Below are positions 13,958-32,005 of a stretch of 41,858 nucleotides of DNA, piece by piece (positions within the stretch are counted from its first letter, which is position 1; every line of letters begins with the position of its first letter). Location: contig NZ_JACHOU010000028.1 of the NCBI RefSeq assembly GCF_014206975.1, forward strand, positions 1 through 41,858, given 5' to 3'. The position numbers and the translations under genes were made by a program. The stretch comes from Aminobacter aganoensis (GTDB taxonomy: Bacteria > Pseudomonadota > Alphaproteobacteria > Rhizobiales > Rhizobiaceae). The notes beneath the pieces are model-generated. The model did not search any database. It saw nothing but the letters and a program-made list of their open reading frames with translations, and had not been told where the DNA came from.

Positions 13958-14031
13958 TGGGGAATAGGTTAACGGTAGACCCACGGACTCTGACTCCGTT
14001 AGTCCTGGTTCGAATCCAGGTTCCCCAGCCA
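13958..14031 (+). tRNA. tRNA-Gln (anticodon CTG)
   Basis: A complete 74-nt cloverleaf. Acceptor TGGGGAA pairs with TTCCCCA, the anticodon stem ACGGA/TCCGT encloses CTCTGAC (anticodon CTG), the T arm is CCTGG-TTCGAAT-CCAGG, and the discriminator G is followed by an encoded CCA. Its 3' end is the attachment site of the integrated element, and the tRNA stays intact at attL. Confidence 0.97.
14015..14031 (+). repeat. attL core (17 bp)
   Basis: TCCAGGTTCCCCAGCCA is identical to 32006-32022 and diverges on both sides. It covers the T-arm 3' strand, the acceptor 3' strand and CCA of tRNA-Gln, the classic target for tyrosine integrases. Confidence 0.93.
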
Positions 14032-14082
14032 CTGAACTTTTTTTGAATAAAACCAGCCACTTAGGTCCGACGCGAAAATCGC

Positions 14083-14101
14083 AACCGGAACAGTTTTCCG
14101 G
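14083..14101. repeat. Candidate arm-type integrase site at attL
   Basis: AACCGGAACAGTT (14083-14095) recurs exactly at 31923-31935 near attR, and here it continues into an inverted TTCCGG. It lies about 50 bp inside the attL core. Shared short motifs inside both att sites are typical of arm-type integrase binding sites; binding is inferred. Confidence 0.5.
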
Positions 14102-14179
14102 CGCACAAAACCGGATCAATGGCCAGGTTGCGCTCTCATCTTCCCTACCTCACAATTCGATTCTTGCGTGGGGGAAAGC

Positions 14180-14623
14180 ATGGATCAAGAGAGGCTAAGG
14201 CAGGTATGGCGCCAGACCAAGATCCCTGTCGTTATTCGGCGTGATGAGAAGGGCCACAAGTTGCGGGTGCGCCTCCCATATGACGATAACAACCGGAAAT
14301 GGCTAAACACGGTCGGAAAGTCGTCGGTAACGTGGATCGACGGCAAGAGCTACTGGGAGCTTCCCCGGAGCTGGTTCAACAGCTTCGTTAATCGCGCCTT
14401 AGAACGCCACGGCAAGCTCTACGTGATTCAGCCCTATCGGGAGCAAGAGAAGTGCGCCAGGAAGTGCATGGAAGCCATGGGCCACGAATGCAATTGCTCG
14501 TGCATGGGGAAGAATCACGGAGCGGGCGTCAACGGGAGTTGGTTTGAAGTATCGGATACGTTCGCCACGCGCTGGAATGAGAAGGAAATCGCTTGCCGAT
14601 TGATGGTCGCCAAAGGCCGTTAA
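14180..14623 (+). CDS. Cys-rich phage-associated hypothetical protein
   Basis: A 147-aa soluble protein of unknown function. The N-terminal half is basic with a W-L-N / W-x-D-G-K-S-Y-W-E-L pattern. The C-terminal half has a Cys/His cluster (CARKCMEAMGHECNCSCMGK, about residues 91-110, followed by NHG) that probably binds zinc; similar CxCSCMGxNHG patches occur in proteins of integrated elements. The ATG at 14180 has GGGGGA upstream; a GTG at 14168 would itself lie within that site. It is the first gene inside attL, the only plus-strand gene at this end, and its stop overlaps that of the convergent membrane-protein gene by 4 bp. Confidence 0.72.
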   Translation: MDQERLRQVWRQTKIPVVIRRDEKGHKLRVRLPYDDNNRKWLNTVGKSSVTWIDGKSYWELPRSWFNSFVNRALERHGKLYVIQPYREQEKCARKCMEAMGHECNCSCMGKNHGAGVNGSWFEVSDTFATRWNEKEIACRLMVAKGR

Positions 14624-15195
14624 CGCCCAGCCTCTCCTGAAGGGTCTTTGATAATCGCCAAGCGATAAACCGCGAGTGCAGCGGCAATCATCAGAATGAC
14701 AGAATAGACCAGCAAAAAGCAGCCTATAAACGAGCCGACCAAACTGACGCAAAGGAATATTTTTCGAGCGGATGGCTCATACACTTCCACGACCTTCATA
14801 AGGTCGAATAGCCAAGTCCCTTGATACAAGAAAGCCCACGCAAGGCATACCACTTGGATAAATATGTAGTGAAAGAAGACAGCGTTAATTGCCTCCAAAT
14901 AACTCACGCCATGCGGCGCTGCAACTTGCCGCAAAGCACCCTTTATTCGCCCGCCGACTATGCTGAAAATGATCGCATAAGTTCCAAGGCTGAAGCCGAG
15001 AAGACTAGGGATAAGGTTCTCTGCCTTCTCGATCCATTTTGGCTCCACCCATAGAGAATAGCTTAAGCCGGTGATCAAGATCGCAAGCCCGAAGAACGGG
15101 GATGCGAGCATCCCCGTTATTCCACCGTAGGCACGTCGATAGCGATTCAGCCACTTGAAAAGCGTTCCCCATGGCGCGAACCAGCGACGAATCAT
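14620..15195 (-). CDS. Four-TM protein, second gene of the DUF4747-like unit
   Basis: A 191-aa membrane protein with about four helices (near 28-50, 61-82, 105-125, 145-178) and short ends. I recognise no family. It starts two bases after the stop of the DUF4747-like gene (TAG-CG-ATG), so the two are almost certainly translationally coupled and act together. A soluble protein followed by a small multi-TM protein is a common layout for defence systems with a membrane effector; that reading is inference from architecture and position next to attL. Confidence 0.75.
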   Translation of the reverse strand: MIRRWFAPWGTLFKWLNRYRRAYGGITGMLASPFFGLAILITGLSYSLWVEPKWIEKAENLIPSLLGFSLGTYAIIFSIVGGRIKGALRQVAAPHGVSYLEAINAVFFHYIFIQVVCLAWAFLYQGTWLFDLMKVVEVYEPSARKIFLCVSLVGSFIGCFLLVYSVILMIAAALAVYRLAIIKDPSGEAGR

Positions 15196-15197
15196 CG

Positions 15198-16067
15198 CTA
15201 TTGCCCCGCATTTCTGCGGGCAGGAATTAGTCCGAAAAACGCGCTCCGCTCACTTTGCTGTTCGGGGTCATAGCGGTCGTGCAATTCTTTCGGAAAATTC
15301 TCGCTATTCAGGCGCACGGCCCCTCTTTCATCCCGACCGACCACCTCCACCGTTCCGTTTTCGAGCGCAACCTTGCTAATTTTCTTAATATCGTCGTCGG
15401 GTTTTATCGATCCATTCCCTTCCGATTTATAAGACACTGAGAACTCCCTACTGCCAGTGCTTTCTAGGTGCTTCTCAATATTAGACTCAAAATTGTCGTC
15501 GAATATGTCAGTATTCGGCTTAAGGATTTTTATATTTATCTCTTTTATTCGCTTAATTGCAAACATCGATTCAAGAGAAGACTTATCTTGAACAATTGTT
15601 ATTTTTGCCTCACCGAATTCGTTAGCGACTTCCGACCGAACCGATAACCCATTGAAAAAACGGAGCGCGGAACCCGCAGTAAGCACCTTACCCTTTGAGT
15701 AAGTTTGAAAATATATCTTGTGCTCCTGCACGTCGAAATAGAAATAGAACGCTGCAGCATTTGGAAATAGATTATGCGGGATATTTATCTCTGAAATATC
15801 CTCATCAGTTGCTTCTGCCATATGTTCGGAATTGAACCAATTTCCATCACCGTCAAATTTGACAAAAGTAGTGATTGCGCCGGTGATGACATTGCTCGCC
15901 GCACCGGAACGATCCAGACTGGATATCATCCCGTGCCGATCCCCATGCACTTGCGCAATCAATCGCTTGGAATAGATCGACTGCATCCACTGCATATAGA
16001 TTTCCGGCGAATGCGGGTGGAGTCGAACATTCAACGCCGATGCGGAAACCTTAACTTTTCGTGCCAT
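15198..16067 (-). CDS. DUF4747-like protein
   Basis: A 289-aa soluble protein. The N-terminus (RKVKVSASALNVRLHPHSPE, then VHGDRHGMISSLD and ITTFVKFDGDGNWF) and the middle part (FYFYFDVQEHKIYFQTYSKG) fit my memory of the DUF4747 family, found in phage and accessory regions; no function is established to my knowledge. The C-terminal third is polar and charged. Base composition is clearly richer in A+T than the neighbours, a sign of recent acquisition. Two adjacent ATGs (16070, 16067) follow a GGGGGA; I chose the second for spacing. The four-TM gene follows after 2 nt. Confidence 0.7.
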   Translation of the reverse strand: MARKVKVSASALNVRLHPHSPEIYMQWMQSIYSKRLIAQVHGDRHGMISSLDRSGAASNVITGAITTFVKFDGDGNWFNSEHMAEATDEDISEINIPHNLFPNAAAFYFYFDVQEHKIYFQTYSKGKVLTAGSALRFFNGLSVRSEVANEFGEAKITIVQDKSSLESMFAIKRIKEINIKILKPNTDIFDDNFESNIEKHLESTGSREFSVSYKSEGNGSIKPDDDIKKISKVALENGTVEVVGRDERGAVRLNSENFPKELHDRYDPEQQSERSAFFGLIPARRNAGQ

Positions 16068-16142
16068 CATTCCCCCAATTCTTTAGCCCGTCTTCGGAAG
16101 CTATATGAATGAGGCCTTTTTCTTCAATCCCCTAAACAGATA

Positions 16143-16168
16143 AAGCCCGCCGGTTGAGCGGCGGGCTT
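16143..16168 (-). terminator. Intrinsic terminator-like hairpin
   Basis: AAGCCCGCCG and CGGCGGGCTT make a perfect 10-bp stem with a 6-nt loop. Read on the minus strand it ends in GCTTTAT, so it would terminate the 194-aa gene before the DUF4747-like cassette. The T-run is short. Confidence 0.6.
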
Positions 16169-16191
16169 GCGGTCAGACGCTACCAGGCGGC

Positions 16192-16248
16192 TTACGCGTT
16201 GAATCCTTCAGCGAGCGAGCCGCTGTAGTCCATGTATACTTCGCCCAT
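16192..16248 (-). CDS. Possible 18-residue micro-ORF
   Basis: ATG at 16248 lies two bases after the TAG of the 194-aa gene (TAG-CG-ATG) and runs to TAA at 16192, encoding MGEVYMDYSGSLAEGFNA. The spacing would allow re-initiation, and the terminator hairpin follows. It is too short to support by composition; it may be chance. Confidence 0.25.
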   Translation of the reverse strand: MGEVYMDYSGSLAEGFNA

Positions 16249-16250
16249 CG

Positions 16251-16835
16251 CTACACCGCACATGCTGATCGCCCCAGATCGGCAGGGATCGTGTTCCGGC
16301 CGGAAAGGTCGTGGAGCATTCCCTTGATCCAGTCACGCGACGATACGGCCGCGAGAGGATAAGTGTTGATCACGCGACCGTGGAAGGTGCGCGGCATACC
16401 GATTGCTGTCAAAGCCTCGACAAGTTCACCGGTCATCTTGCGGTCGGACATCCGGGTAAGATCAAGGTAACGCTTGAGTGTATCGCGCAAGTCCCGACTC
16501 TCAGCACGATGAAGTGCCCTAGCCGTTTCAAGCATCAGGTTGGGGACGCCACGGGCGTCAATATAGGCGTCGCGTATATGGCGCAAAGCCTGCACAGCGC
16601 CCTCCATCTTATCCACCTTCTCATCAAGCGACGAAATGATGAATTCGTCGGTAGCGTGAGGATCATGCACAAGTGCCGCGATCTCGCCCACAAATGCATC
16701 TGCCCCGTCCACGTCCACTTCAACGCGCCCGAGTGCGTCAATGCCTGCGGGGCTAGCCAAGACCTCCTGAAATGAGGCCCTCGCGTCCTGGCTGTTTGCC
16801 AGTGCGTTCGGCGAAGTGCTATTGGTGTCGTTCAT
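16251..16835 (-). CDS. Hypothetical element protein, 194 aa
   Basis: An acidic, mostly helical soluble protein that I do not recognise. Heptad-like stretches (DEKVDKMEGAVQALRHIRDA, then LHRAESRDLRDTLKRYLDL) suggest coiled-coil or oligomerising helices; there is no clear helix-turn-helix or catalytic motif. The ATG at 16835 has GGAG eight bases upstream. It lies between the small 56-aa gene and the cargo cassette, the place where such elements often keep regulators. A strong inverted repeat (16890-16935) and an AAGTTATCTAAG motif (17081) lie in its upstream region. Confidence 0.65.
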   Translation of the reverse strand: MNDTNSTSPNALANSQDARASFQEVLASPAGIDALGRVEVDVDGADAFVGEIAALVHDPHATDEFIISSLDEKVDKMEGAVQALRHIRDAYIDARGVPNLMLETARALHRAESRDLRDTLKRYLDLTRMSDRKMTGELVEALTAIGMPRTFHGRVINTYPLAAVSSRDWIKGMLHDLSGRNTIPADLGRSACAV

Positions 16836-16889
16836 CGCTGGATCTCCATTGCTGCGATGTGTCGGCAGGTGAAGCGCCTGCCTCGCTTA

Positions 16890-16935
16890 TCTGTCGGTTC
16901 GGGTGCGGGTTCCAATCGACGCCCGAACCGACAGA
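16890..16935. repeat. 14-bp perfect inverted repeat upstream of the 194-aa gene
   Basis: TCTGTCGGTTCGGG (16890-16903) and CCCGAACCGACAGA (16922-16935) are perfect inverted arms around an 18-nt centre. No T-run follows on either strand. It could be a leader hairpin or an operator in the 5' region of the minus-strand gene. Confidence 0.6.
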
Positions 16936-17080
16936 ATTCCCAGACAGACGCGCATCGCCCCACGGACGCATAACGCGGCCGGGCGAACCTGCTTCGATTT
17001 GGGGAATACCTATAAGTCACAAGTGACGTTGGTTTTCACTAGGATTTTTTAGGAATTTTAAGGAATGCCGTATTTTCAAT

Positions 17081-17092
17081 AAGTTATCTAAG
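17081..17092. promoter_or_regulatory. Operator-like motif upstream of the 194-aa gene
   Basis: AAGTTATCTAAG shares the core found in the cluster at 17332-17380 upstream of the 56-aa gene. The same motif near two transcription units suggests one regulator; the regulator is not identified. Confidence 0.35.
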
Positions 17093-17096
17093 AGCG

Positions 17097-17267
17097 TCAG
17101 CCCGCCAAGCCTTGAATGCTCGCTGGCCAGACGCCGCCGATCTCACCAAGCGCCTCTTGAATCTTCTCAATGTTAGGGCCGCCATCCATCGGCGACGGCT
17201 CGATCCCAGCGAGCGCGTTCACCAGCTTCCAATAAGTTTCGTTCGGCAGGTAGTTGTCAGTAGGCAT
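17097..17267 (-). CDS. Small hypothetical protein, 56 aa
   Basis: The frame begins MPTDNYLPNETYWKLVNALA and ends IGGVWPASIQGLAG before TGA at 17097. An AGGAA lies about 6 bases before the ATG at 17267, and a promoter with a perfect TTGACA lies upstream (17300-17328). No signal peptide or membrane segment is present and I do not recognise a family. A regulated promoter of its own in the control region suggests an early or regulatory role for the element, by inference. Confidence 0.6.
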   Translation of the reverse strand: MPTDNYLPNETYWKLVNALAGIEPSPMDGGPNIEKIQEALGEIGGVWPASIQGLAG

Positions 17268-17299
17268 GCTGTATTCCTGTGATGCTGATTTGCGCCGGG

Positions 17300-17380
17300 A
17301 ATGTGAGTCATCACGGAATCGCTGTCAAGACAGATAACTTAATAAATTCAATCACTTAGATAAGTAAACGCTGACTTATC
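17300..17380 (-). promoter_or_regulatory. Promoter and operator cluster of the 56-aa gene
   Basis: On the minus strand, TTGACA (17323-17328), a 17-bp spacer and CACATT (17300-17305) form a promoter. Immediately upstream are related motifs: AGATAACTTA (17332-17341), the palindrome ACTTAGATAAGT (17354-17365) and ACTTATC (17374-17380). They resemble a multi-site operator read by one protein. Confidence 0.5.
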
Positions 17381-17398
17381 ATCATGTGCGGTGTCGGC

Positions 17399-17432
17399 AA
17401 AAAAAGCCGCCCGGGGATACCTTCCGGGCGGC
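17399..17432 (-). terminator. Strong intrinsic terminator
   Basis: On the minus strand GCCGCCCGG, a 9-nt loop and CCGGGCGGC are followed by seven T. It ends transcripts coming from the 17.4-18.2 kb region and insulates the 56-aa gene's promoter from the late operon. Confidence 0.88.
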
Positions 17433-17469
17433 AGAGAGACAGAGTGTTTCAATTGGAAGATCTCAACGA

Positions 17470-17485
17470 CGACAGTATAGCAAAA
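17470..17485. repeat. 16-bp direct repeat, copy 1
   Basis: CGACAGTATAGCAAAA is identical to 18154-18169 and the two copies flank the candidate structured RNA. On the minus strand it reads TTTTGCTATACTGTCG, with a TATACT that could serve as a -10 element. This copy lies 38 bp upstream of the terminator. Confidence 0.7.
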
Positions 17486-17661
17486 TTACAGACAACTTGC
17501 ATGTCCGGACAAGCTTTTTCCTTCATGGATTCAGTTGGTTAAATCGAACGTTCGCCTTCGGCTCACCTGCGCGGTCGCTTCGCTTCCTTGCTCGCGCTTC
17601 GCGCGAACCTGTAGTCAGCCTGTTGTAGGCAACCCCACCAAATCCCTGCAGAGGCTGACTT

Positions 17662-17709
17662 TCCCCTGTCATGAAAGCGAAGGGTGATCGCCGCTTTCAT
17701 GACAGGGGA
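17662..17709. repeat. 18-bp perfect inverted repeat
   Basis: TCCCCTGTCATGAAAGCG (17662-17679) and its exact reverse complement (17692-17709) surround a 12-nt loop. It is the longest stem in the candidate RNA and stacks directly on the 9-bp helix ending at 17660. No T-run follows, so a terminator is unlikely. Confidence 0.85.
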
Positions 17710-18153
17710 TTCTTAGATGGGTCTGCATCGTCAGTGGTGAAGAGGCTAAGCTTGATAAGCCGGCGTGGTGGTATCCATTGACCACGCAAATACCTCCGAA
17801 TCCTGATCCTGGGATCAATACGGTTACGGGCTCGCCGTAGCGAGTTCCGAGCACCATGCGCGACTTACCTTCAATCGCGACATGGCCGGTGTTGTGGTTC
17901 CACAATCTAGGGACTCACAGAGCACCGTCTTGTTGGCAGATTTTACGCTGAGAGAGCGTCGGCTCTAACTAAACCGGGCGTCCGTGCATTTTCTGACGGG
18001 GAGCTGTCGGTTCAATCTTCCGTTCGATCTGGCTATCTCATCGCGCCGGTCGGTCGGGGAAACCCCTCATGTCCCGGTTATCGCGGAAATAGTCTAGCGC
18101 CAGTATGGCCCTTACCCGATTATCAACCCGGGCGGACTTTTGCTCTGTCAGGT

Positions 18154-18169
18154 CGACAGTATAGCAAAA
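18154..18169. repeat. 16-bp direct repeat, copy 2
   Basis: This is the second CGACAGTATAGCAAAA. On the minus strand it starts inside the TTTT of the hairpin after the tape-measure gene and would place a TATACT box just before the candidate RNA. No good -35 stands out. Confidence 0.7.
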
Positions 18170-18211
18170 CGTCGGATGCAATGCAGATGTTTTGCGCGCA
18201 TCCGACGTTTT
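18166..18211 (-). terminator. Hairpin overlapping the tape-measure stop codon
   Basis: AAAACGTCGGATGC and GCATCCGACGTTTT form a perfect 14-bp stem with an 18-nt loop. Its 5' arm on the minus strand includes the tape-measure TAA, and the 3' arm ends in TTTT. It could be a weak terminator or an mRNA 3'-end or processing structure between the late operon and the candidate RNA. Confidence 0.55.
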
Positions 18212-20864
18212 ACCTACTCCTTGTATTGCCCATGTTGCCGGGCCGCATCTGGCGAGCGAGTTCGCTGACAACCGTTGCTCGCATCGTGGCTTCCATCGTC
18301 CGGCCGATCTTGGCGGCGAGGTCCGCGTTTTCAGCCGGCGTGCCGCCGCTGGCGTTCACCGTAACGGGGGCGTTGATGTTCACCGTGGGCGCTGGCGCAG
18401 TGTTGGCGTTCGCGGGAACATGGATACGGCGCACGGCTGGCGCGTCACCGGTATACCCACCCTCGGCGAAACCACGCAGTGCTCCCTGGTGAAGCGCCTC
18501 AAGGTTGCCTACACCGATCCGGCGCGTTGCCGCCTTGCTCATCACATACTCGCCCTTATGGACGACACCGGCGGGCTGATGCTTCCCGCCATCGCCGGTG
18601 TAGCCGCCATCTGCGAAGCCGAACAGCGATCCAAACAAACCACCGCCGCTAGCCGTCCCGAACAGAGCGGCAAGCGGCCCCTGCCCCAAGAGCATCGCCT
18701 GAAGGGCTGCATCGATAAGAGCATTGGCGAGGTTACGAACGGCGTCCGTCACCGACATAGTGCCGGTGAGCAAGCCGGAAAGACTCGACGTGAATTGCTG
18801 GCCGAACCACATACCAGCCTGTTGCAAGGCGGTCTGCGATTGTTTGGCCTGCTGGTTTTCACCGTCCAACTGCTGCGTCAGCGCGATCTTCTCGCGCATT
18901 TTCTGGATTTCTTCGTCTGTCAGCGAGATGCCGGCGCGCTTCGCCTCCTGCTGATACTGGTAAAGCTGAAGCTCGACACGCTGCTGACTGGCGGACATGC
19001 CGGAAATCGACTGTTCAAACCGGGCGAGGTCTAAACCTTCCTGCACGGTCGAATTGAGCCGCTGGCGCGCTTCGGCCTGCTGCTTGGCAAGGTCGATCTG
19101 CTTTTGCTGCCCATCGGTCGGCGCAAGCGGCTGCGAGGCTGTCGCAGTGCCGTTGTAGGCGTTCTGGATGGTCGTATCATCGACGTTGCGCAGGCCCTCC
19201 CATTCGTTGCGCAGGCCGGCCATATCGCTACCGCGACGGCGAAGCAACGCACGCGCTAGTTCGTCCTGGGTGCCTTCATCGAACAGCCTATCGCCGGTAA
19301 GGCCAAGCTCTCCCATGAGACCATGAAGGGTGCGGCGGGTGATCTGGTAGCGGCCCACCGCCGACGAATTGAACGAGTTGTTCGGGTGCGCCAGCATCGA
19401 CTTCTGAAGGCCAAGGACCTGATCAAGCGTCATGCTGGTCAGGTTCACCGCACCACCGGTGAACGCGCCATAGCCGAGCGTCTCGTTGTAGCCGCGCCCC
19501 TTGTCTGTGCCTTCGGCCGCACCGATGAGGTCGAGCATGTTGTCGTGCTTGCCGAAGCGCGCAATCGACTTCGCCCGATTGGCGATGTCGGCGGCACCCA
19601 GCACCTCGCCCATAGTCCGGGCGCTGCCAGCGGCCTTGCGGAACGCCGCATCGATAACGTCGGTCTGCGACAGCGTTTCGAGTTCGGCCTTGAGTTCCGG
19701 GACAAGGCTTTTCAGATCGGCCAGGGCGGCCTTGAAGTTTCCCGCCGCACTGACATTGCGATTGAACGCGCCGCCGACATTCTGAGTGATGTCGGAAAGC
19801 TCTTTGAGCGCGCCCTTCAACTCGTCGCTACCACCGCCAAGCGAGACAATTTGTTCCTCAACGGCCTGGAGCGAGGCGCGAAGCTGGCGAAGCTCGAGCA
19901 CCTTGGTCGCAAAGTCGGGACCGTTATCGAGGTCGGCTATCTGCTTCTGAAGGCGTGTGCGCTGTTTCTCGGCCTGCCTAAGCTTGGCCTCGTCGGAAAA
20001 CAGGTAGTCATAGGCCTTCTGCTGCTTGTCATAGCCAGGAAGCCACTCGCCGCTCAGGGCCGAAATGATGCTGCCGGCATAACCAACGCCTTCGATTGCT
20101 GCCTGCTTCGCGTAGATCGTAACGTTGCGCCACAGGGTGGCGAACTCGGCGTCTATCTTCTTTGCGGCCGCGATCTGCTCATTGGTGAAGGTGGCGGCTT
20201 CGTTGCGCAGCTTCTGAATCTCGGCGACAGACAAGCCGAGTGCCTTGGCCAGTTCCTCCGCACCGGTGCCGCCGAACAGTTCGTCGAGGGCGCGCGTGCG
20301 CGCCGCTGCATCGAGCTTTTGGAGCTTCTCGACAAGCTCGTCGAGGAAGCGGCTCGGGTCGGCGAGCTTCCGGCCTACTTCCGCCGCACTGTAGCCGAGC
20401 GCTTCGAAAGCAGCCTGTGCGCTGCCCTTGCCGGTCTTGGCAAACTCGTCGCCGCGAATGTTCAGTTCCTTGAGCGCGTCGGTCATCCCGTCGATCGACA
20501 TGCCGGTGGCGGTCGCTACGGCGTGCCACTGCTGCCATACCTGGGTGGTCACGCCGGCCTTCTTTGCCTCGCGGTCAACCTCGGCAACGGAATCGGCGAT
20601 CTGCTTCACGGCCATCGCCGCGCCGGTGACGCCGGCAAAGACCGCGCCGCCGCGCAGGAAGGGCGCAAAGGCGCTTTCCAGGCCACCGGCGAGCTTATCG
20701 GCGGCGCGGCCTGTCATCTTCTCCATGTTACCGGAGAACTGCTTGGCGCGGCCTTCCATGCGCTTGAAGTTGTCATTGGTCGCACGGCCGGCGCGCTGCA
20801 TGTCGCGCTCATACTTGTTAAGGCGGGCCTCAAGCGCGACCACAAGGCGCTGTTCGTCGTTCAT
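18210..20864 (-). CDS. Tape-measure protein with lysozyme-like domain
   Basis: An 884-aa structural protein that would set tail length and be threaded through the tail. The N-terminal 250 residues show the tape-measure pattern (VALEARLNKYERDMQRAGRA, then a Gly/Ala hydrophobic stretch around 75-90 and a helical region ending ELFGGTGAEELAKALGL). Residues about 450-570 contain a muramidase-like domain: AAEGTDKGRGYNETLGYGAF with a candidate catalytic Glu, and SAVGRYQIT. Long helical segments and a Gly-rich C-terminus (LFGTASGGGLFGSLFGFADG) follow. It is the last gene of the operon, 9 bp after terL, and no tail-tube gene precedes it. The muramidase may be the element's only wall-degrading activity. 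Confidence 0.88.
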   Translation of the reverse strand: MNDEQRLVVALEARLNKYERDMQRAGRATNDNFKRMEGRAKQFSGNMEKMTGRAADKLAGGLESAFAPFLRGGAVFAGVTGAAMAVKQIADSVAEVDREAKKAGVTTQVWQQWHAVATATGMSIDGMTDALKELNIRGDEFAKTGKGSAQAAFEALGYSAAEVGRKLADPSRFLDELVEKLQKLDAAARTRALDELFGGTGAEELAKALGLSVAEIQKLRNEAATFTNEQIAAAKKIDAEFATLWRNVTIYAKQAAIEGVGYAGSIISALSGEWLPGYDKQQKAYDYLFSDEAKLRQAEKQRTRLQKQIADLDNGPDFATKVLELRQLRASLQAVEEQIVSLGGGSDELKGALKELSDITQNVGGAFNRNVSAAGNFKAALADLKSLVPELKAELETLSQTDVIDAAFRKAAGSARTMGEVLGAADIANRAKSIARFGKHDNMLDLIGAAEGTDKGRGYNETLGYGAFTGGAVNLTSMTLDQVLGLQKSMLAHPNNSFNSSAVGRYQITRRTLHGLMGELGLTGDRLFDEGTQDELARALLRRRGSDMAGLRNEWEGLRNVDDTTIQNAYNGTATASQPLAPTDGQQKQIDLAKQQAEARQRLNSTVQEGLDLARFEQSISGMSASQQRVELQLYQYQQEAKRAGISLTDEEIQKMREKIALTQQLDGENQQAKQSQTALQQAGMWFGQQFTSSLSGLLTGTMSVTDAVRNLANALIDAALQAMLLGQGPLAALFGTASGGGLFGSLFGFADGGYTGDGGKHQPAGVVHKGEYVMSKAATRRIGVGNLEALHQGALRGFAEGGYTGDAPAVRRIHVPANANTAPAPTVNINAPVTVNASGGTPAENADLAAKIGRTMEATMRATVVSELARQMRPGNMGNTRSR

Positions 20865-20873
20865 GTTTGGTCC

Positions 20874-22496
20874 TTATGCTGCGTCGGCGGTCAGCCGGTC
20901 GAATTCGTCGGGGTCCAGGTCGAGGAAGGATTTTCGGTTGTCGTTCGCGGCGGCGCGCGCAACGGCCATGACGGCAGCAACCGCGCCGTCGATACGGTCG
21001 GTTTTCTTGCCCTTGTGCATGCGGACAAGGCCGGTGTCGTTTCGCGAGGCCACGACGCTATCGAAGTGGTGGCGTAAGACAGGATGCCCGCCGTGGCGAA
21101 GCGCCTTGCCGTTCACGACGCGCTCAAGGGTGCCGATTGCCGGTCCCATGGTGAGCGGCCCTTGGCGCATCTCGACCGCCGGCAAGCCATCGTCGTGCAA
21201 TCGCTGCATGGTCATGCGTGCAAGGTGAGGATCGAAAGCGATCTCGCGCACGTCAAAGCTCGCGCAAAGCTCGCGAATATGCTGCTCAACCTCTGTCGGC
21301 TCGATCACCGGGCCGTCTATCACCGTGATCAGGCCATCGTCGCGCCACTGCTCGTAAGGCACGCCGTCACGTTCTGCCCTGCCCTTCAGATCGTCGCCGG
21401 GCACGAAAAACCATGGATGCACGATGATCCGGTCATCGTCGTGCCGCCACGCGGCGACAACGGAGGTCAGGTCGCCGTTCACCGACATATCAACACCGAT
21501 GAAACACGGCAGCGCTTCCATGTCGGCGAGGTCGAGCGACATCTTGCCAGCGTCATAGGTCGCCATGTCGAACAGCGGGTCGCGGGAATGCGCCTGCCAG
21601 ATATTCAGGTTGAATTGCTTGAAGGCGGCACGATCTGCCGGCCGATGCTCGGCTTCTTTCGCAGCCGTGCGCAGAGCGTCGAGGTTCGGGAAGCCGTGCG
21701 CAAGGCCGGGGTTGACGCGATGCCAAAGCGCCTCATCCTGCCAATCGTTGTCGTTGGCCGCCTCAAAGATGATCGGCAGATAGGCCGGATTGTCGATCTC
21801 GCCGCGCGCCACGCGCCGCGCATATTCGTATTGGTCAAAGCCGATGTTCTCGGATCCACGGCCGGCCGTGGTGGCGATCACCAAAAGCGTGCCGCTGGTC
21901 TTCACCATGCCGGACTTCAAGGCTTCCCAGAGGTCACGGCCCTTCCACACGTGGATTTCATCTACAAGCACGAAGGCCGGTGTCTTGCCGTGCTGCGCAG
22001 CGCCGTCGCTGGAAATAGCCTGAAGCTCGACGCCTTGCGCCTTGAAGGTGATTTTCTTCGCGCTGTTGTGCGCGTCATAGATGCGGGTCGCGGCGACAAG
22101 GCGCTTGTCCATCCGCACGATGTTTGCGGCTTCCTTGAAACCAAGGCCGGCTTGCTCGCGGTCGGACGCGGCAAAGATCACCTGTCCGGCTGGAACCTTC
22201 TCCGGGCCGATGGTGTGCAAGAGCGCGAGCGCAGCGGCGAGGCTGGTCTTACGGTTCCCGCGTGGAACCATCCAGAAGGCAGTTTCCACGATGCGCCGGC
22301 CGTCGGGGTGGCGCGGTCCATAGATACCGCGCACCATACGCTCAAATGGCCGGTAAAGCTGAAAAGCGTGGCCGGGTGCGCTGCTGTTCGGATGCTTCAG
22401 GCGGCGAAGGAACTCAACGGCGCGCTCCCCGTAGCCGAGCGGATCGGGAATCGGCGAATTGTCGAACAGCCATTCGGGATAGGTGCTCGCCATCAC
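20874..22496 (-). CDS. Terminase large subunit
   Basis: A 540-aa DNA-packaging motor. The ATPase part has an arginine-containing Walker A-like loop (VPRGNRKTSLAAALAL, about 72-87) and Walker B/catalytic Glu in FVLVDEIHVW. The nuclease part shows RNase H-type acidic residues at FIGVDMSVNGDLTS, IAFDPHLAR and RIDGAVAAV. Length and motifs fit the HK97-type TerL that pairs with P27-family TerS. The ATG at 22496 overlaps the terS stop by 4 bp. In this element terL lies near the end of the operon instead of before the portal gene. Confidence 0.95.
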   Translation of the reverse strand: MMASTYPEWLFDNSPIPDPLGYGERAVEFLRRLKHPNSSAPGHAFQLYRPFERMVRGIYGPRHPDGRRIVETAFWMVPRGNRKTSLAAALALLHTIGPEKVPAGQVIFAASDREQAGLGFKEAANIVRMDKRLVAATRIYDAHNSAKKITFKAQGVELQAISSDGAAQHGKTPAFVLVDEIHVWKGRDLWEALKSGMVKTSGTLLVIATTAGRGSENIGFDQYEYARRVARGEIDNPAYLPIIFEAANDNDWQDEALWHRVNPGLAHGFPNLDALRTAAKEAEHRPADRAAFKQFNLNIWQAHSRDPLFDMATYDAGKMSLDLADMEALPCFIGVDMSVNGDLTSVVAAWRHDDDRIIVHPWFFVPGDDLKGRAERDGVPYEQWRDDGLITVIDGPVIEPTEVEQHIRELCASFDVREIAFDPHLARMTMQRLHDDGLPAVEMRQGPLTMGPAIGTLERVVNGKALRHGGHPVLRHHFDSVVASRNDTGLVRMHKGKKTDRIDGAVAAVMAVARAAANDNRKSFLDLDPDEFDRLTADAA

Positions 22497-22879
22497 GTCA
22501 CCGCGAGCGGGTTGTCGTCGTCATCGTCGGCGTCGGCAGAACCGACGCGAGCACGCGACGTAGGCGTTAGCCCGTATTCGGCGGCAAGCTGCCGGGCTGT
22601 TTGCATGTAGCGAATCTGCAAGCCGCCAAGCTTCAGGTCGGGAATAGGCATTTCGGCCATAAGTTCGGTGATCTGGTCCACCACGCCGACGGCAACGCAA
22701 TAGTTCACGACGCCAGCAAGATCGGCCTTGGTGACGATCCGGCGGGTGATCAATTGCGGCATGACGCGCTTCCATTCGGCGCGCGCGTAATCATTCATCC
22801 GCGCCGGGGCGACAGGGACCTTGGTCAGCGCCTGATGGTCGGTGGACAGAGCCGGCTTGACGCCGCGAAGGTGCGTCAT
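22493..22879 (-). CDS. Terminase small subunit, P27 family
   Basis: A 128-aa protein that would recognise the packaging site and load TerL. The P27-family pattern is visible (APARMNDYARAEWKRVMPQL, then LITRRIVTKADLAGVVNYCV, and a helical oligomerisation segment around LGGLQIRYMQTARQLAAEYG). The C-terminus is acidic (DADDDDDN). It overlaps the genes on both sides by 4 bp. Confidence 0.9.
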   Translation of the reverse strand: MTHLRGVKPALSTDHQALTKVPVAPARMNDYARAEWKRVMPQLITRRIVTKADLAGVVNYCVAVGVVDQITELMAEMPIPDLKLGGLQIRYMQTARQLAAEYGLTPTSRARVGSADADDDDDNPLAVT

Positions 22880-23193
22880 GCGGTAGCCACCGCCCTAAGC
22901 TCAAGGCCGCGTCGGCGGCCGATCTCGGTCACTTCCTTGAGGTCATAGACCTGTCCGGCATAGGTCACGCGGTCGGCCGTGGTGATGCCGGCGAGATAGC
23001 GGATACGGAACGCGATGTTGCCGCTTTCCGCCTCCCCGAAGCCGGTCAGGAACTCTGATGCCGCCGATGTCACGATCTCGGCGCGCACCGTGGCGACGGG
23101 CGTCCAGGCAGCGACCACCGCGCCCGAGTCCGAAACGGCTTCGGATTTGCGTTCAATGGTGATCGTGCGATCAAGCTTGCCGGCGCGCATCAT
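22876..23193 (-). CDS. Head closure (head-tail adaptor) protein
   Basis: A 105-aa neck protein of the HK97 gp7 / SPP1 gp16 stopper type. The start MMRAGKLDRTITIERKSEA, the middle VWA-like stretch AAWTPVATVRAEI and the ending TYAGQVYDLKEV are typical of the family. The ATG at 23193 overlaps the DUF3168 stop by 4 bp (ATGA), which fixes the start. It connects the portal/connector to the tail. Confidence 0.87.
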   Translation of the reverse strand: MMRAGKLDRTITIERKSEAVSDSGAVVAAWTPVATVRAEIVTSAASEFLTGFGEAESGNIAFRIRYLAGITTADRVTYAGQVYDLKEVTEIGRRRGLELRAVATA

Positions 23194-23609
23194 ACGCTCC
23201 ACCGCATGACGGCTTCCACGGTGATAACGCCGTGGGTGTAAGCTTGGGCCGGATTAGGGTCGCGCATCCACCGGATGGCCGGCAGGCTGAATTCATCGAA
23301 GGCGAAGCTGGTTGCGTCGGGCGCTTGCTTCAGCACGTTGGACACGGCAAAGCCAATGGCCTTGGCAGTGTCAGCGCCGTCTTCCAGCGCCCAAATATGA
23401 AGGTCGAGGAATACGCGCGCGACATATTGCGAGCCGGAAGCGTTGCCGAGAAAAATGGTCTGGCCACCGCTCATGATGATCGACGGCAGCTTGTCCGGCC
23501 GCGTCGAGCCGGCGCGGATATGATCAACGGGCACAAGCGCGGCGACGGCCGGCGAGGCAACCAGTGCCGAACGGATGGCGGTCTGTAGGGCAAGCGTCGG
23601 TTCGATCAT
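23190..23609 (-). CDS. DUF3168 tail-completion protein
   Basis: A 139-aa protein of the DUF3168 family, which includes tail terminators that cap the tail at the neck. Signature parts are LALQTAIRSALVASPAVAAL at the N-terminus, HVDL-like strand VARVFLDLHIWALEDG, and YTHGVITVEAVMRWSV at the C-terminus. The ATG at 23609 overlaps the gp10 stop by 4 bp. A tail terminator without a tail-tube gene nearby is odd. Confidence 0.88.
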   Translation of the reverse strand: MIEPTLALQTAIRSALVASPAVAALVPVDHIRAGSTRPDKLPSIIMSGGQTIFLGNASGSQYVARVFLDLHIWALEDGADTAKAIGFAVSNVLKQAPDATSFAFDEFSLPAIRWMRDPNPAQAYTHGVITVEAVMRWSV

Positions 23610-24037
23610 TTTCCATTCCATTCGTCACGCACGGCTTTCCTAGCCGCACGGTTGAGGCGGTTCTGAAGGCGCAGGCGAAGCAACCGAAAGGCAGGCCAAA
23701 AGAACGGCTGTGCTTCAGCCTGGGCCGTGCCGAACTCGACAAGGTGCGCGTAGCGAACATCGGTGTTGCCGGCAGTCACGATCACTTCCGTCTCACCAGC
23801 AACACGCGAGCCGCCGGGCTGCGAATACGGCAGCGTCGATTGGCCGGGCTGTGTGACAGCGATGCTGTCGATCAACGCGCCGGTGTCGCGGGAGCTTTCT
23901 GCCAGCGAGCGCTGTGCGTCGGCGAGTTCGTCACCGGACTTAAGAAGCGCCGGCATAACGGCTGCGCGCGGTGCCTTACGGGCGCGCTCGATAGCAGCCA
24001 GGGTCGAGGCAAGGCCGTTGTCGTTCTTAGGCGGCAT
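23606..24037 (-). CDS. HK97 gp10 family protein
   Basis: A 143-aa neck/tail-joining protein of the HK97 gp10 family. Recognisable parts are AAVMPALLKSGDELADAQRS, then RDTGALIDSIAV, and RYAHLVEFGTAQAEAQPFFW (the conserved HxxEFGT followed by PFxxPA). The ATG at 24037 (MPPKND) matches the family's length and overlaps the upstream stop by 11 bp; 24067 is possible but adds residues without a ribosome binding site. Confidence 0.87.
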   Translation of the reverse strand: MPPKNDNGLASTLAAIERARKAPRAAVMPALLKSGDELADAQRSLAESSRDTGALIDSIAVTQPGQSTLPYSQPGGSRVAGETEVIVTAGNTDVRYAHLVEFGTAQAEAQPFFWPAFRLLRLRLQNRLNRAARKAVRDEWNGK

Positions 24038-24332
24038 CTTCGCCAAACCAGTTTTCGCGGTAGGCATCGGCGATACTGGTCACGCTGAAAGGCGCGATCT
24101 GCATGGTGCCGCCGAAAGCGACGGCCTCGCGCTGCTCGTAATGGAACGCAACCAGCTTCAGCGCTGCAAGCTTGAGGTCAGCCGGCAGTGGGTCAATGTC
24201 GGCGAGCGGCTTACCGATGTAATTGGACAGGTAGGCGTCGGCCGCGTCGAGGTAGAGGGAAATCAGGTCATCGTCGGTCGAACCGTCGACATTCATGTGC
24301 GCCTTGGCGAGCGCAAGGGTCACGATGCTCAT
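24027..24332 (-). CDS. Head-tail connector (gp6-like) protein
   Basis: A 101-aa all-helical connector of the HK97 gp6 / DNA-packaging family. It has the pattern LALAKAHMNVDGSTDDDLIS, then AADAYLSNYIGKPL and ALKLVAFHYEQREAV. It forms the ring below the portal in related phages. The ATG at 24332 overlaps the previous stop by 4 bp. Confidence 0.87.
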   Translation of the reverse strand: MSIVTLALAKAHMNVDGSTDDDLISLYLDAADAYLSNYIGKPLADIDPLPADLKLAALKLVAFHYEQREAVAFGGTMQIAPFSVTSIADAYRENWFGEDAA

Positions 24333-24586
24333 GCGTTTTCGGCCTTTTCTGAAAAAGTTATTTCGGGACTCTCTTGTGCGGTGCTCCCCGCGCCGGTCCC
24401 CTCGACAGGCAGAAAGTTGAACACCACCCCCGCTCGGCGCTGCTGGACGCTCGGAATGCAAACAGCCTGCTCGACGCTCCAACCCTCCTTCAGGCGGGCA
24501 TAGATCACCTTGTGCTCGACGCCGGATATTTCGGAAAGCTCGCGAAGCAGGTAGCGGTGGCCACGGAATTCGTAGAGGCGGATCAT
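24329..24586 (-). CDS. Small HTH-like protein
   Basis: An 85-aa protein. The segment LSEISGVEHKVIYARLKEGW (about 17-36) looks like a helix-turn-helix of the kind found in small phage proteins linked to homing or HNH genes (initiator helix, IYxRLxxGWS). The rest is Ser/Glu-rich and probably flexible. The ATG overlaps the HNH gene's stop by 4 bp, so it is made with it. DNA binding is inferred. Confidence 0.6.
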   Translation of the reverse strand: MIRLYEFRGHRYLLRELSEISGVEHKVIYARLKEGWSVEQAVCIPSVQQRRAGVVFNFLPVEGTGAGSTAQESPEITFSEKAENA

Positions 24587-24957
24587 TGGCGTTGGTTCCT
24601 ATAAGTTTCGGCGGGTGTCATTGGCGCACCTTCGCGAATGTAATCGCGGGCATTGCAGCGCCGGCAACCGGGACGCCAGTTGGCGCGCACCATGCGAAGC
24701 TCGGGGTGCCGGCGGATGCTGACAATATGTCGGACAAGCGTTGCCGGTGCGCCGCATTCACAGTGCTTATTGCCGGGAAGCTGAAGGAAGGCGCGGGCGG
24801 CTTCCTCCCATGCACGGTCATAACCGCGACGGCTGGCGTTCTCGCGGCGTGCATCGTGGCGGGTGTTACGCTCGCGGGCGGCTTGGCGCTGGCACTCACA
24901 ACGAACGCCGTGCGGCACGATACGGCCACAGGTGCAAAGGTGCGGTGGGCGGCTCAT
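24583..24957 (-). CDS. HNH-type nuclease, variant active site
   Basis: A 124-aa protein with the HNH layout seen next to phage terminases. Cys pairs that would hold zinc are in CTCGRIVPHGVRCEC and CECGAPATL, and the nuclease core is VRHIVSIRRHPELRMVRANW followed by RPGCRRCNARD. The usual D-H-I is R-H-I and the last residue of the triad is Asn (CNARD), an H-N-N form. Terminase-linked HNH proteins assist genome cutting in HK97-type phages. The Asp-to-Arg change may weaken it. Confidence 0.75.
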   Translation of the reverse strand: MSRPPHLCTCGRIVPHGVRCECQRQAARERNTRHDARRENASRRGYDRAWEEAARAFLQLPGNKHCECGAPATLVRHIVSIRRHPELRMVRANWRPGCRRCNARDYIREGAPMTPAETYRNQRQ

Positions 24958-25553
24958 GTTGCCCTCTGCTTGGCTAGACCGCGCAGTTTCGATATCCCGG
25001 CCTTTACCTTCTCAGGGGCAATTTCCTGGCGCGGATCATCCGACTTGGGATCTGCGTCGTCGGGGCTGCCGTGGATGGTTCTAAGCATGGCGATGTGGCC
25101 GGCGAAGGCCTCATTGATTTCTGTCGGCGTGGCGTTCCACGCAACTTCCGGCGCCCAGTGGAGTGCGCCTGTCGCCGTGCGGAAAAGCTGGCGGTAGAAG
25201 TCAGGCCAGGGCATCGGCTTGATGTTGGATTGGGGCTTGGTGTCGTTATCGGATACCGGGATGAACCCGGCGCATAATGCGAGCAACGGTGCGGTAATGG
25301 CGTCGGCAGCGCCCTTGAGCGGCGTGCTGTCTATCTGGTCGAGGAAGGCCGTTGCCTCTCGGCGGTCGGTTGCGGTGGCCATGATGGCAGTTCGAACAGT
25401 GCCAACATGGAATTCGCTGACATGCCGAAGCAGGCCAGCGAAACCGTCATGAACACGCTCAAGGCGGGAAGCAGCCCGCAAGGACGGGCGCAATCGGACG
25501 GTGTGGCCACCGAGCGCAAGCGTGATCTCGTCGATTGCGGGCCGGAAGGTCAT
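24954..25553 (-). CDS. Tail-assembly-chaperone-like protein, 199 aa
   Basis: The first 60 residues (ITLALGGHTVRLRPSLRAAS, then RLERVHDGFAGLLRHV) resemble GTA gp10-type chaperones. A central part (MPWPDFYRQLFRTATGALHW, then APEVAWNATPTEINEAFAGH) resembles the second half of split chaperones, in which a W-x-x-T-P-x-E motif is usual. It could be a continuous equivalent of the frameshifted G/GT chaperone pair. Assignment is by pattern only. It lies in the head-gene zone, far from the tape-measure gene. Confidence 0.55.
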   Translation of the reverse strand: MTFRPAIDEITLALGGHTVRLRPSLRAASRLERVHDGFAGLLRHVSEFHVGTVRTAIMATATDRREATAFLDQIDSTPLKGAADAITAPLLALCAGFIPVSDNDTKPQSNIKPMPWPDFYRQLFRTATGALHWAPEVAWNATPTEINEAFAGHIAMLRTIHGSPDDADPKSDDPRQEIAPEKVKAGISKLRGLAKQRAT

Positions 25554-25557
25554 GGCG

Positions 25558-25959
25558 CTATGCCAACGTAGGCTGCACAATAGGGCGAACCCTCGGGCGA
25601 CCCTTGATTGCGACCACGCTCACATTGCCGGAGCCGGAAACCCTGACTTTGATGTAGCGATGATGCGTGCCGTTGCCGATGTGAACGGTGCTGTTTGCGG
25701 GAAGTTCCAGTTTTGGCCTAAGCTCGACATACTTTCCGGTGGGCTCAGGATCGAGGGGCGCGGCAAATTCGGCGTCCAGGACATCGCTACCCCAAAAAGT
25801 GACATTCACTCCATATGGAGAGTCCACATCACCGGTCGAGATAGCGATTGTCAGGCTCCCAAAGTCGCGAACATCAATTGCCTCGCTGGTAAGAGAGTCG
25901 CCTATACTCTGCGGAGCGATGACGCTCACAACCGCGATATTGTTTGCAAGATCACGCAT
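25558..25959 (-). CDS. Putative head-associated protein
   Basis: A 133-aa beta-rich protein directly after the capsid gene. It follows a pattern common downstream of phage capsid genes: an N-terminal D-L-x-N-N-I start, FGSLTIAISTGDVDS in the middle, and RYIKVRVSGSGNVSVVAIKG near the end, reminiscent of decoration or head-fibre proteins. No catalytic motif is present. The ATG at 25959 is the conserved start. Confidence 0.6.
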   Translation of the reverse strand: MRDLANNIAVVSVIAPQSIGDSLTSEAIDVRDFGSLTIAISTGDVDSPYGVNVTFWGSDVLDAEFAAPLDPEPTGKYVELRPKLELPANSTVHIGNGTHHRYIKVRVSGSGNVSVVAIKGRPRVRPIVQPTLA

Positions 25960-25969
25960 GGTCGCCGCC

Positions 25970-27514
25970 TTAGCTCGTTGCCATCTTGAGCTTGCGCAGC
26001 GCCTTCGGCTGCACCACGTCGCCACCAACGCGGTGGCGGGCGTGAATGCGGATCAGGCCTTCCGTCGCAAGCAGATACGGATTCGAGAACACCGAAAGCC
26101 CCGACAGGCGATCATAGATGCGGTAGGCGGTGGCGAAGTCGCCAAACGCAATCGGGAACTCGTCGGCCTCGATATCCGGCATGTCGATCATTTCGACCAC
26201 AGGGCGGCCGAGAATGGTTTCGGGCTGTCCTGCCTGATAGGACGGCTGCCAGAGGTAGTTGCCCTGGCCATCCTTCAGCTTACGGATGGTGGCAAGCGTC
26301 GTGCCGCTCATGGCCCAAGTGCCACGGTTCCGATAGCCGGCAGGCATTGCATACATAAGCGAGATCAGCGCATCGGCCGACAGATTGGCTGCATGGCCGT
26401 TGAGCGTAACGTCGATATCGTCGGCGGTCATGAAACCGCGCGGCGCGAGAACGCCGTCGCCGTTGACGAATGCCGCGTCTTCCTTCTGACCAAAGTCTTC
26501 GGCAAGCGACATGCGCACTTCGGCCTCGGCGGCCGGTGCATCCTCTTCAAGCCAGTTCGAAATATCGACCAGGGTGCCGATTTCCTTCACCGGCAGTTCG
26601 ATCTGCCCGAAAGACGGCTCGCTGCCGGTAGTGGCCTGGGTTTCGCCCTTCCACAGGGCGTTGGTGCGACCGATGCGCTTGGGCAGGGTTACAGCCGGGG
26701 CGGCCGTCTGGCGAACGGTGGCGAGCGCGCGCATAGGCGAGAACTCGACAAGATCGCGAATGAACTCAGACGAGATTTCGGCCGGTGCGAGATAGCCGCC
26801 CCGCGCGTCATTCGACACGACAAGCGCCTTGAGTTCGGTCGCATCCTTGCCGTGGCGAAGATACGAACGGAACGCCTTGCGCTCGTCATTGTCGTTCTCG
26901 GCGGCCGGATGATTGTTGTTCGCCGCAATCGGGCGATTGGCCTTGGCCTCGATCTTGTCGAGACGGGCCTTGAGCGCGTCGAATTCCTTCTTTTCAATCA
27001 CCGGGTCAGCCTTCGCTTCCAGCTCGTTGACTGCTTCATTTGCCATTTCATTCTCCTTGACAGGTGCCGCGCCATCGGCGGCTTTGATCGTCGTGATTTG
27101 CGCGCCCGGATGGCAGGGGACCGCGACAACAGAGATTTCGTGAAGGTCGAGCGCCGTGATCGTCCGGCCGTTGCGGCGGGGTTTGGCGCTCTTGGTAACA
27201 AAGCCGATGGACAGGCCGGTAACGGCCTTGGCCTTGATCATGGCGCGAACCTCGCGGGCGCGCGCCACGTCATCGACCAGCAAGCGACCCTTTACGGTGA
27301 GGCCCTCGGCGGTTTCGGTGATCTGGTCCCAGACGCCAATAGTGTCGCGCTGGTCGTGCGCAAACAGCATCGGCACTGAAGTCGGCGCGGTGAAAGCGCC
27401 CTTTTCGATCACATCGCCGACACGATCAGGCGAGCCGAACGGCCAAGCGAGGCCGGTAATCTCGCCGGTGTCGTCAACGGTGAGCGCGGCCTTGATTTCG
27501 AGGCGTTCGGTCAT
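25970..27514 (-). CDS. Fused HK97 prohead protease and major capsid protein
   Basis: A 514-aa polyprotein. Residues 1-160 are an S78-type prohead protease: WPFGSPDRVGDVIEKGAF, catalytic His in MLFAHDQRDT, catalytic Ser in AVTGLSIGFV. Residues about 170-225 are a charged coiled scaffold (NELEAKADPVIEKKEFDALK), and from about 240 comes the HK97-fold capsid protein (GGYLAPAEISSEFIRDLVEF, then ETILGRPVVEMIDMP). In most relatives protease and capsid are two genes; here one frame spans both and should be self-cleaved. The ATG at 27514 overlaps the upstream stop by 4 bp. Confidence 0.93.
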   Translation of the reverse strand: MTERLEIKAALTVDDTGEITGLAWPFGSPDRVGDVIEKGAFTAPTSVPMLFAHDQRDTIGVWDQITETAEGLTVKGRLLVDDVARAREVRAMIKAKAVTGLSIGFVTKSAKPRRNGRTITALDLHEISVVAVPCHPGAQITTIKAADGAAPVKENEMANEAVNELEAKADPVIEKKEFDALKARLDKIEAKANRPIAANNNHPAAENDNDERKAFRSYLRHGKDATELKALVVSNDARGGYLAPAEISSEFIRDLVEFSPMRALATVRQTAAPAVTLPKRIGRTNALWKGETQATTGSEPSFGQIELPVKEIGTLVDISNWLEEDAPAAEAEVRMSLAEDFGQKEDAAFVNGDGVLAPRGFMTADDIDVTLNGHAANLSADALISLMYAMPAGYRNRGTWAMSGTTLATIRKLKDGQGNYLWQPSYQAGQPETILGRPVVEMIDMPDIEADEFPIAFGDFATAYRIYDRLSGLSVFSNPYLLATEGLIRIHARHRVGGDVVQPKALRKLKMATS

Positions 27515-29165: not shown

Positions 29166-29189
29166 ACACCTAAGATTGAACCTAGGAAT

Positions 29190-29219
29190 ATTGTCTCATA
29201 CTGCGATTCTTGCGGTCAA
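29190..29219 (-). promoter_or_regulatory. Candidate promoter of the structural operon
   Basis: On the minus strand TTGACC (29214-29219), an 18-bp spacer and GACAAT (29190-29195) lie 25 bp before the portal start. This would drive the whole 11-kb operon. Confidence 0.45.
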
Positions 29220-29327
29220 TAAAAAAAGGAAAGTAATCCTATAAAGTTTCAAATCGCCTTACAAACCCTCGCCAGGTCGAATACCCCAACATTGTAAATC
29301 TCCACGACTCGTCCATAGGTGGATGGC

Positions 29328-31888: not shown

Positions 31889-31911
31889 CACGGTCCTTCC
31901 GTAGCACCATT

Positions 31912-31935: not shown

Positions 31936-32005
31936 CTAGACTAAAAAACCCTTACTGCGCAATATATTGCACAAAAACATAGGCTTAATTTTTCTTGGAT
32001 TACTG

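Follow-up and report, generated by a model that had tools for sequence, protein, structure and literature searches.

The window, by which we mean the whole 41,858-nt stretch of DNA that was analysed, is carried by contig C28 (NZ_JACHOU010000028.1) of the 5.76-Mb genome of Aminobacter aganoensis. It contains an integrated element that lies between direct repeats, next to a tRNA gene (Table 1). Among the ORFs that we scanned, the minus strand of this element encodes an integrase, portal, protease-capsid, HNH, neck, tail terminator, and head closure proteins, the small terminase, the large terminase, and a tape-measure protein (matches to phrog_10574 with E = 2.7e-84 and to phrog_430 with E = 2.5e-15). 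The initial annotation spoke of a phage late region. The island proteins scanned include none named as tail tube or baseplate, and as far as scanned the element is a satellite-like island rather than a full phage. Capsid-forming phage-inducible islands (cf-PICI) are small and have an integrase and their own head genes but no tail module. Likened from its genes alone, the island resembles them as a small integrated element (about 18.0 kb) with integrase, capsid, portal, and terminase genes; unlike them, it has a tape-measure gene. Neck and tail terminator genes are present as well.

Table 1. Features of the island and of the RNA locus (positions in the window).
Feature	Position	Strand	Remarks
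tRNA-Gln gene	13958-14031		3' end is the left direct repeat, 14015-14031 (attachment site)
Integrated element	14015-32022	.	about 18.0 kb between 17-bp direct repeats, 14015-14031 and 32006-32022
Integrase	30101-31891	-	island gene
Tape-measure gene	18210-20864	-	directly upstream of the RNA; lysozyme-like stretch inside
Perfect 14-bp hairpin spanning the stop codon of the tape-measure gene	18166-18211	-	inverted repeat; 3' arm ends TTTT
Promoter-like box	18154-18169	-	TTTTGCTATACTGTCG (extended -10 TGCTATACT); from sequence
Predicted transcript	about 18153 to 17399	-	about 755 nt; predicted ends
Conserved structured RNA	17644-18106	-	463 nt, bounded by the AUACUGGC box and the 3' GCAGG box; homologues occupy the equivalent position on the same strand; alignments A3, A5, A7
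Long-range helix CUGGC/GCCAG	18029-18103	-	18103-18099 with 18033-18029; A7
CCGG/CCGG hairpin	18046-18077	-	18077-18074 with 18049-18046; A7 helix 2; window loop has an extra GGGG..CCCC insert
CUCCCCG...CGGACGC hairpin	17978-18003	-	A7 helix 3
Central core, H1-H5	17763-17933	-	A5
H1	17927-17923/17891-17888	-	
H2	17919-17916/17896-17893	-	
H3	17886-17873/17865-17853	-	
H4	17818-17813/17808-17803	-	
H5	17787-17781/17769-17763	-	
Long perfect hairpin, 18-bp stem	17662-17709	-	family hairpin; stem sequence varies among distant members
3' box AAGUC-n-UAU-n-CC-GCAGG	17644-17661	-	here AAGUCAGCCUCUGCAGGG; directly after the long hairpin; variants in the family
GNA-triloop hairpin cluster	17549-17609	-	3' of the RNA; GGCCGAAGGCC and GCGAAGC types
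Second exact copy of the promoter-like 16-mer	17470-17485	-	from sequence
Strong intrinsic terminator	17399-17432	-	GCCGCCCGG..CCGGGCGGC, then T7

A gap of about 0.75 kb separates the tape-measure stop (18210) from the terminator (stem 17432-17406 and a T run to 17399); for this gap the initial annotation proposed a large ornate RNA, possibly of a new class, and no convincing protein. The gap is real, and the stems that were named are present on its minus strand. The two ORFs in it of more than 60 aa (80 aa on the plus strand and 78 aa on the minus strand) have no match in Pfam. When folded, the 776-nt minus strand reaches −298.4 kcal/mol, versus a mean of −259.5 (sd 8.2) for dinucleotide shuffles (z = −4.7, with 0 of 20 shuffles as low).

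Comparison with the homologues described below separates the stems that belong to a family from those that do not. The 18-bp perfect stem is exact (17662-17679/17692-17709) and proves to be a hairpin of the family, and the 10-bp bulged stem (17854-17885) is the core helix H3, which covaries strongly. The nested CGCG/CCGG/GGGG series is upheld in part: CCGG is a family helix, but GGGG is an insert seen solely in the window row of alignment A7. The C(UACG)G stem is present and sits where the family has a hairpin of variable length. Finally, the 9-bp stem (17613-17621/17652-17660) is on the minus strand, but we saw no conserved counterpart of it by eye. (We also considered a 15-nt match, 18127-18141 with a terminator arm, as a closing stem and rejected it: by eye it has no counterpart in the homologues compared.)

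To find relatives, we gathered loci via the tape-measure protein: 48 viral loci, 42 loci from named genomes, and at least 80 viral loci by profile, with overlap between these sets. When the window RNA and non-coding stretches of the loci L051 and L044 were compared with 220 loci by sensitive BLAST, homologues appeared at the same place and on the same strand in Pseudaminobacter manganicus (L124, repeated as L152), Brucella endophytica (L107), Rhizobium paknamense (L108), two other Rhizobium spp. (L111 and L116), and the viral contigs L160, L161, L051, and L176. Another locus, L035, is identical to the window across the 841 bases compared. As DNA, the window RNA had nothing useful in phages (one 4% match at E = 0.3) and no similarity in plasmids, and the member L242, used as a DNA query, had no match in either set.

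R1, a 160-position covariance model built for the central core, matched 24 of 94 other loci, and all of its matches there were full-length. Because 10 of these loci built the model, 13 were brought in by it, and 1 repeats L124, the informative part is the negative set: R1 had no match at E ≤ 1 in the 83 loci without the RNA by BLAST. R1 also matched 13 of 297 genomes of the organism's own family, at 14 places, of which 8 are near a terminase match and 6 are away from one. R2 matched 8 of 397 genomes of the order, 5 of which were kept, and 4 of 385 genomes of the class, 2 of which were kept (our own genome is included in both kept sets). The R2 matches in G160, G518, G527, G881, and G990 (19-29 bits) were dropped as chance; by eye they look like coding sequence, and the long hairpin is absent. 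Viral contigs were scanned with DNA patterns as well. A pattern from the 5' half found L245-L250, with the R1 core in 6 of 6, and a further scan gave the new members L267-L269. The pattern TCAGGA..GNCAATGGATACC gave 17 stretches, of which the true RNAs are L092 (the window's element) and L093 (the contig of L051); the 15 without BLAST similarity around the match were taken as chance. Similarly, a DNA comparison of the L051 region with 297 genomes of the order gave 3 short matches (37-58 bases) that we did not accept as members. With repeats removed, the members collected comprise 31 distinct cores including the window's, several of which are more than 93% alike.

That this is a real structured RNA family is, in our judgement, close to certain. 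Already in a MAFFT alignment of ten sequences, 30 of 48 consensus pairs have changed on both sides. Alignment A5 holds 20 core sequences with identities of 42-98% (mean 56%). In it, 29 of 35 pairs have changed on both sides, in 163 cells (not independent events, as several members are close kin), and 95.6% of 683 cells pair, whereas shuffles average 73.5% and none of 500 reached the observed value. Because A5 was aligned with its own structural model, it leans towards that structure; when the partners were moved by 1-3 columns, pairing was 32.4-46.3%, with at most 13 pairs. A7 covers the 5' half in 18 sequences aligned by MAFFT without structure, and its three helices were named after inspecting the sequences. 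There, 88.7% of 274 cells pair (19.4-37.6% for the slid structures), and 11 of 16 pairs have changed on both sides. (A7 contains 18 of the 23 prepared stretches. L161, L116, L111, L263, and L264 were left out for an unclear third hairpin or longer inserts, and L237, L176, L051, L265, L246, and L267-L269 fell outside the preparation.) All five positions of the CUGGC/GCCAG helix are paired in 18 of 18 sequences, and 4 of its 5 pairs have changed on both sides: besides CUGGC, the first strand reads GCGGC, UCGAC, UCGGC, UUAGC, GCUGC, and others, with matching partners. In helix 2 (CCGG), 4 of 5 pairs have changed on both sides and 83.1% of cells are paired, with the outermost pair failing in 10 of 17 sequences; the figures for helix 3 are 3 of 6 pairs and 83.2%. 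RNAalifold on the unedited 22-row alignment of the 5' half gave few pairs and a low energy (−8.2). A larger alignment, A6 (35 rows), still includes the five dropped R2 matches and two rows from the group B described below, so the case for covariation rests on A5 and A7. In both, with slid controls and shuffles, covariation goes beyond chance and relatedness, and the check across homologues that the initial annotation had asked for thus came out strongly in favour of an RNA. The members share a fold of about 460 nt.

The core also indicates the strand. A5 contains 88 G.U cells versus 4 A.C cells (one invariant U.G pair accounts for 20 of the 88), and this excess points to RNA from the minus strand. 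In A7 the counts are nearly even (11 G.U and 10 A.C cells), which leaves the core as the sole source of the strand signal. One might ask if the structure acts as DNA, in the form of a packaging, replication, or recombination site. The 5' half would allow this, and a mobile element, the proximity of terminase, and stable GNA-triloop hairpins nearby would suit it. However, the G.U excess in the core is explained by one transcribed strand, and a covarying multi-helix fold across 460 nt is a further argument against a DNA site, to which we give hardly any weight. Conserved protein coding in one frame was the other reading to be checked. A translated comparison of 17 segments running from stop to stop, each 35 aa or longer, gave matches to other members in several frames and on both strands, mirroring the DNA similarity, so no single frame is conserved.

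The part of the fold that follows the core is conserved in a different way. We searched the 260 nt on the 3' side of the core for the best hairpin, and 23 of 23 rows (22 distinct, as L248 repeats L108) gave a long one, with a stem of 12-24 bp that always lies 45-55 nt from the core. It nearly always starts with a C run and ends with a G run (it is weakest in L236), and after it comes the 3' box of Table 1 or a variant. By eye the hairpin is also present in L261-L265 and L267-L269; L246 is cut by the contig end. Close kin have the stem sequence in common (L107/L108/L161, L160/L244, L111/L116, and L239/L240), and in the other members the inner stems differ yet still pair. We propose that the long hairpin serves as a spacer or arm whose length and rigidity would matter, not its letters. 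A guide role for the variable stem was also considered and set aside, with the DNA searches of phages and plasmids described above as the evidence looked at.

To our knowledge, few very large, highly structured classes of bacterial RNA are known. With Rfam 15 (4227 models), the window had no match at gathering level except for the tRNA, and ten relatives (two from group B and none from group A) had none. The covariance-model search suggested at the outset thus yields no known family for the window, L107, or L242, or for group B as represented by L037 and L044; together with the covarying fold, this supports a large ornate RNA that may be a new class. A catalytic RNA or a self-splicing intron remnant of a known class could be of this size and could have tertiary-type features such as GNRA strings (found in the H4 loop in 16 of 20 sequences; in one of the 16, L237, the string is not a closed tetraloop). 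However, besides the lack of gathering-level matches, a search at E ≤ 10 gave just weak rows far below gathering for the window (14 of them in 17000-18300), L107, and L242, and we consider a known catalytic class quite unlikely. The one weak row that we describe here is the DUF3800-XI RNA (RF02975, a 48-position model), which matches H4 and the following stretch in L242 (3538-3589) with E = 0.099, or 0.028 in a smaller search, at 18.7 bits (gathering is 37.8); neither the window nor L107 has such a row. We found no earlier report of this RNA in the literature covered, although most subscription papers lie outside that coverage and an earlier report is possible.

The initial annotation likened the region to GOLLD and ROOL. 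Kretsch et al. (2025, PMC12286853) describe GOLLD as a large, ornate, non-coding RNA encoded by phages and prophages, with covarying stems and unknown function; many members exceed 800 nt, the 3' region is conserved and the 5' region less so, and the RNA forms a 14-mer nanocage. ROOL, by the same source, is prophage-borne, forms an octameric nanocage, is 659 nt long in env-120, and has a sequence-free linker at a fixed position. Both form RNA-only cages of unknown purpose (PMC12286853). The likeness holds in kind: the window RNA is also large, ornate, and non-coding, occurs in mobile elements, and has covarying stems, and with ROOL it has in common a similar length class and carriage by prophages. 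It does not extend to the covariance models: at E ≤ 10, the weak rows that the window, L107, and L242 return include neither GOLLD nor ROOL. There are other differences. First, the conserved span here is 463 nt and the predicted transcript is about 755 nt, and both halves are conserved. Second, the relatives of the window RNA were found in Alphaproteobacteria. Third, GOLLD and ROOL are often (though not necessarily) near tRNA islands, whereas the window has one tRNA, at the attachment site and more than 3 kb away. A possible parallel to the ROOL linker is the fixed-position hairpin, which changes its stem sequence but is base-paired. Judged by sequence, then, the new RNA has no relation to GOLLD or ROOL and is of the same kind of large ornate RNA. 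Another RNA that is similar by description is an abundant transcript of about 800 nt from phage ICP1, which has no ORF and is predicted to be non-coding (PMC7567579). It is alike in size and in being non-coding, and ICP1 is parasitised by a satellite family, PLE.

The hairpin over the tape-measure stop codon is probably the end of the tape-measure message, and the promoter-like box follows it. Of 27 members, 19 have the motif GCTAT[AC] at a distance of 150-420 nt upstream of the core, versus 12.7% of random windows; it is missing by pattern in the other 8, and in some of the 19 (L124, L235, and L262) it is far from the expected place. A consensus scanner found no sigma-70 site. The terminator was read from the sequence, as the terminator scan did not report the 17432-17406 stem. 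On the 3' side of the RNA, at +100 to +400, at least one GNA-triloop hairpin is present in 16 of 27 members (6.1% of random windows). Clusters of such hairpins were also noticed in L107, L108, L160, L244, and others, and likewise in elements without the RNA (L036 and L040).

Alternatively, the RNA could belong to the tape-measure operon, as its 3' untranslated region or as a trailer processed from it, where the structure would stabilise the late message or set its timing and there would be no separate RNA. Indeed, 20 of the 31 members have a relative of the tape-measure gene within 3.5 kb upstream on the same strand. However, the other 11 show none (4 of these, L237, L238, L242, and L269, are seen over less than 3.5 kb), and different genes are found upstream of them. 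Tyrosine integrases adjoin the copies in L235, L237, and L242, and a resolvase adjoins that in L243. L238 has a type I restriction subunit (HsdR) and a DUF3102 protein, L241 a TIM-barrel gene, L261 an aldehyde dehydrogenase and a Mu-type transposase, and L262 a portal-like fragment. In L264 a relative of the window's integrase lies about 5 kb away, and L265 has unnamed genes. Also, in the window the tape-measure gene is closed by its hairpin before the promoter-like box is reached. A trailer therefore seems improbable to us, if somewhat less so than a known catalytic class. Three features argue for an independent transcript, which we predict with good confidence: the promoter-like box, the hairpin closing the tape-measure gene, and the occurrence of the RNA in islands in which we found no such gene. 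It would start from its own extended -10 promoter and end at the terminator about 755 nt on, apart from the tape-measure message.

The place behind the tape-measure gene is itself variable: of the 43 loci, counted with duplicates, that have a tape-measure relative, 13 have this RNA, 5 have group B, and 25 have neither. The varied genes beside the RNA argue for a transferable cargo that helps mobile elements. Our overall explanation, to which we assign a probability of about 60%, is that the locus is a free-standing gene for a non-coding RNA of a new family, with its own transcript, whose product would be a particle carried as cargo. Upon induction of the element, the folded RNA might act as a particle, either as a homo-oligomer alone, in the manner of GOLLD and ROOL, or together with a protein of the host or of a phage, and so benefit the element. 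This is the weakest step: a scaffold- or cage-like RNA particle, proposed by analogy, is a tentative idea that we would put at rather less than even odds. The fullest version of it is more doubtful again, namely that this is a further natural particle-forming RNA family (a cage, ring, or other oligomer), unrelated in sequence to GOLLD and ROOL, that is transferable cargo of satellites and islands of Alphaproteobacteria and has a rigid hairpin arm of variable sequence at a fixed place.

The main competing explanation is that the RNA functions when bound to protein, in a ribonucleoprotein like OLE or as a guide or effector in an island-borne system for defence or counter-defence. Some copies without a tape-measure gene have defence-like company (PDC-S06/AAA_13 by L235 and type I HsdR by L238), and conserved unpaired stretches, such as AAUGGA..CC in H5, could contact a protein. 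On the other hand, we found no protein family or neighbouring gene common to all of the contexts examined, three window neighbours that were scanned with PADLOC had no match, and most copies adjoin a virion gene. We view a protein-bound RNA as a real possibility, though a minority one. The protein by L235 (8200-10551) is an AAA_13 protein that matches the candidate defence family PDC-S06 (E = 1.4e-70) and lies beside both the integrase and the RNA.

A new class that is unrelated in sequence to GOLLD and ROOL, and that resides in small satellite-like elements of rhizobia, would be a fresh and compact case for asking whether the formation of oligomers is general among such large RNAs. As the RNA could be deleted in harmless laboratory rhizobia, it also allows asking what the mobile element gains from it.

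The four members of group B (L037:8980-9480, L044:8960-9460, L120:7020-7520, and L266) have in common a second conserved non-coding RNA, about 450-500 nt long, with a like layout and a long hairpin of its own, and in L037, L044, and L120 it follows the tape-measure gene. Groups A and B have BLAST-similar DNA 3' of the RNA in common, but not the RNA itself. R1 does not detect group B. In a search of 816 kb, R2 detects it weakly, at the right place and strand, in L037 (18.7 bits, E = 0.0058) and L044 (18.4 bits, E = 0.0069), and does not detect L120; chance matches of similar score arose in much larger searches. The R2 alignment is believable for L037 at H1, H2, and H4 and is poorer for L044. 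Group B is, from these sequence comparisons, a probable distant branch of the family.

In a third set of loci, group C (L036, L039, L040, L147, and others), the first 400 nt 3' of the tape-measure gene are partly conserved and apparently non-coding; RNAalifold on a poor alignment of these gave no structure. Lastly, the second copy of the promoter-like 16-mer in the window lies just before the terminator and could produce a short RNA. By eye, a second GCTATA box followed by a terminator is also present in L107, L124, L176, and L044.
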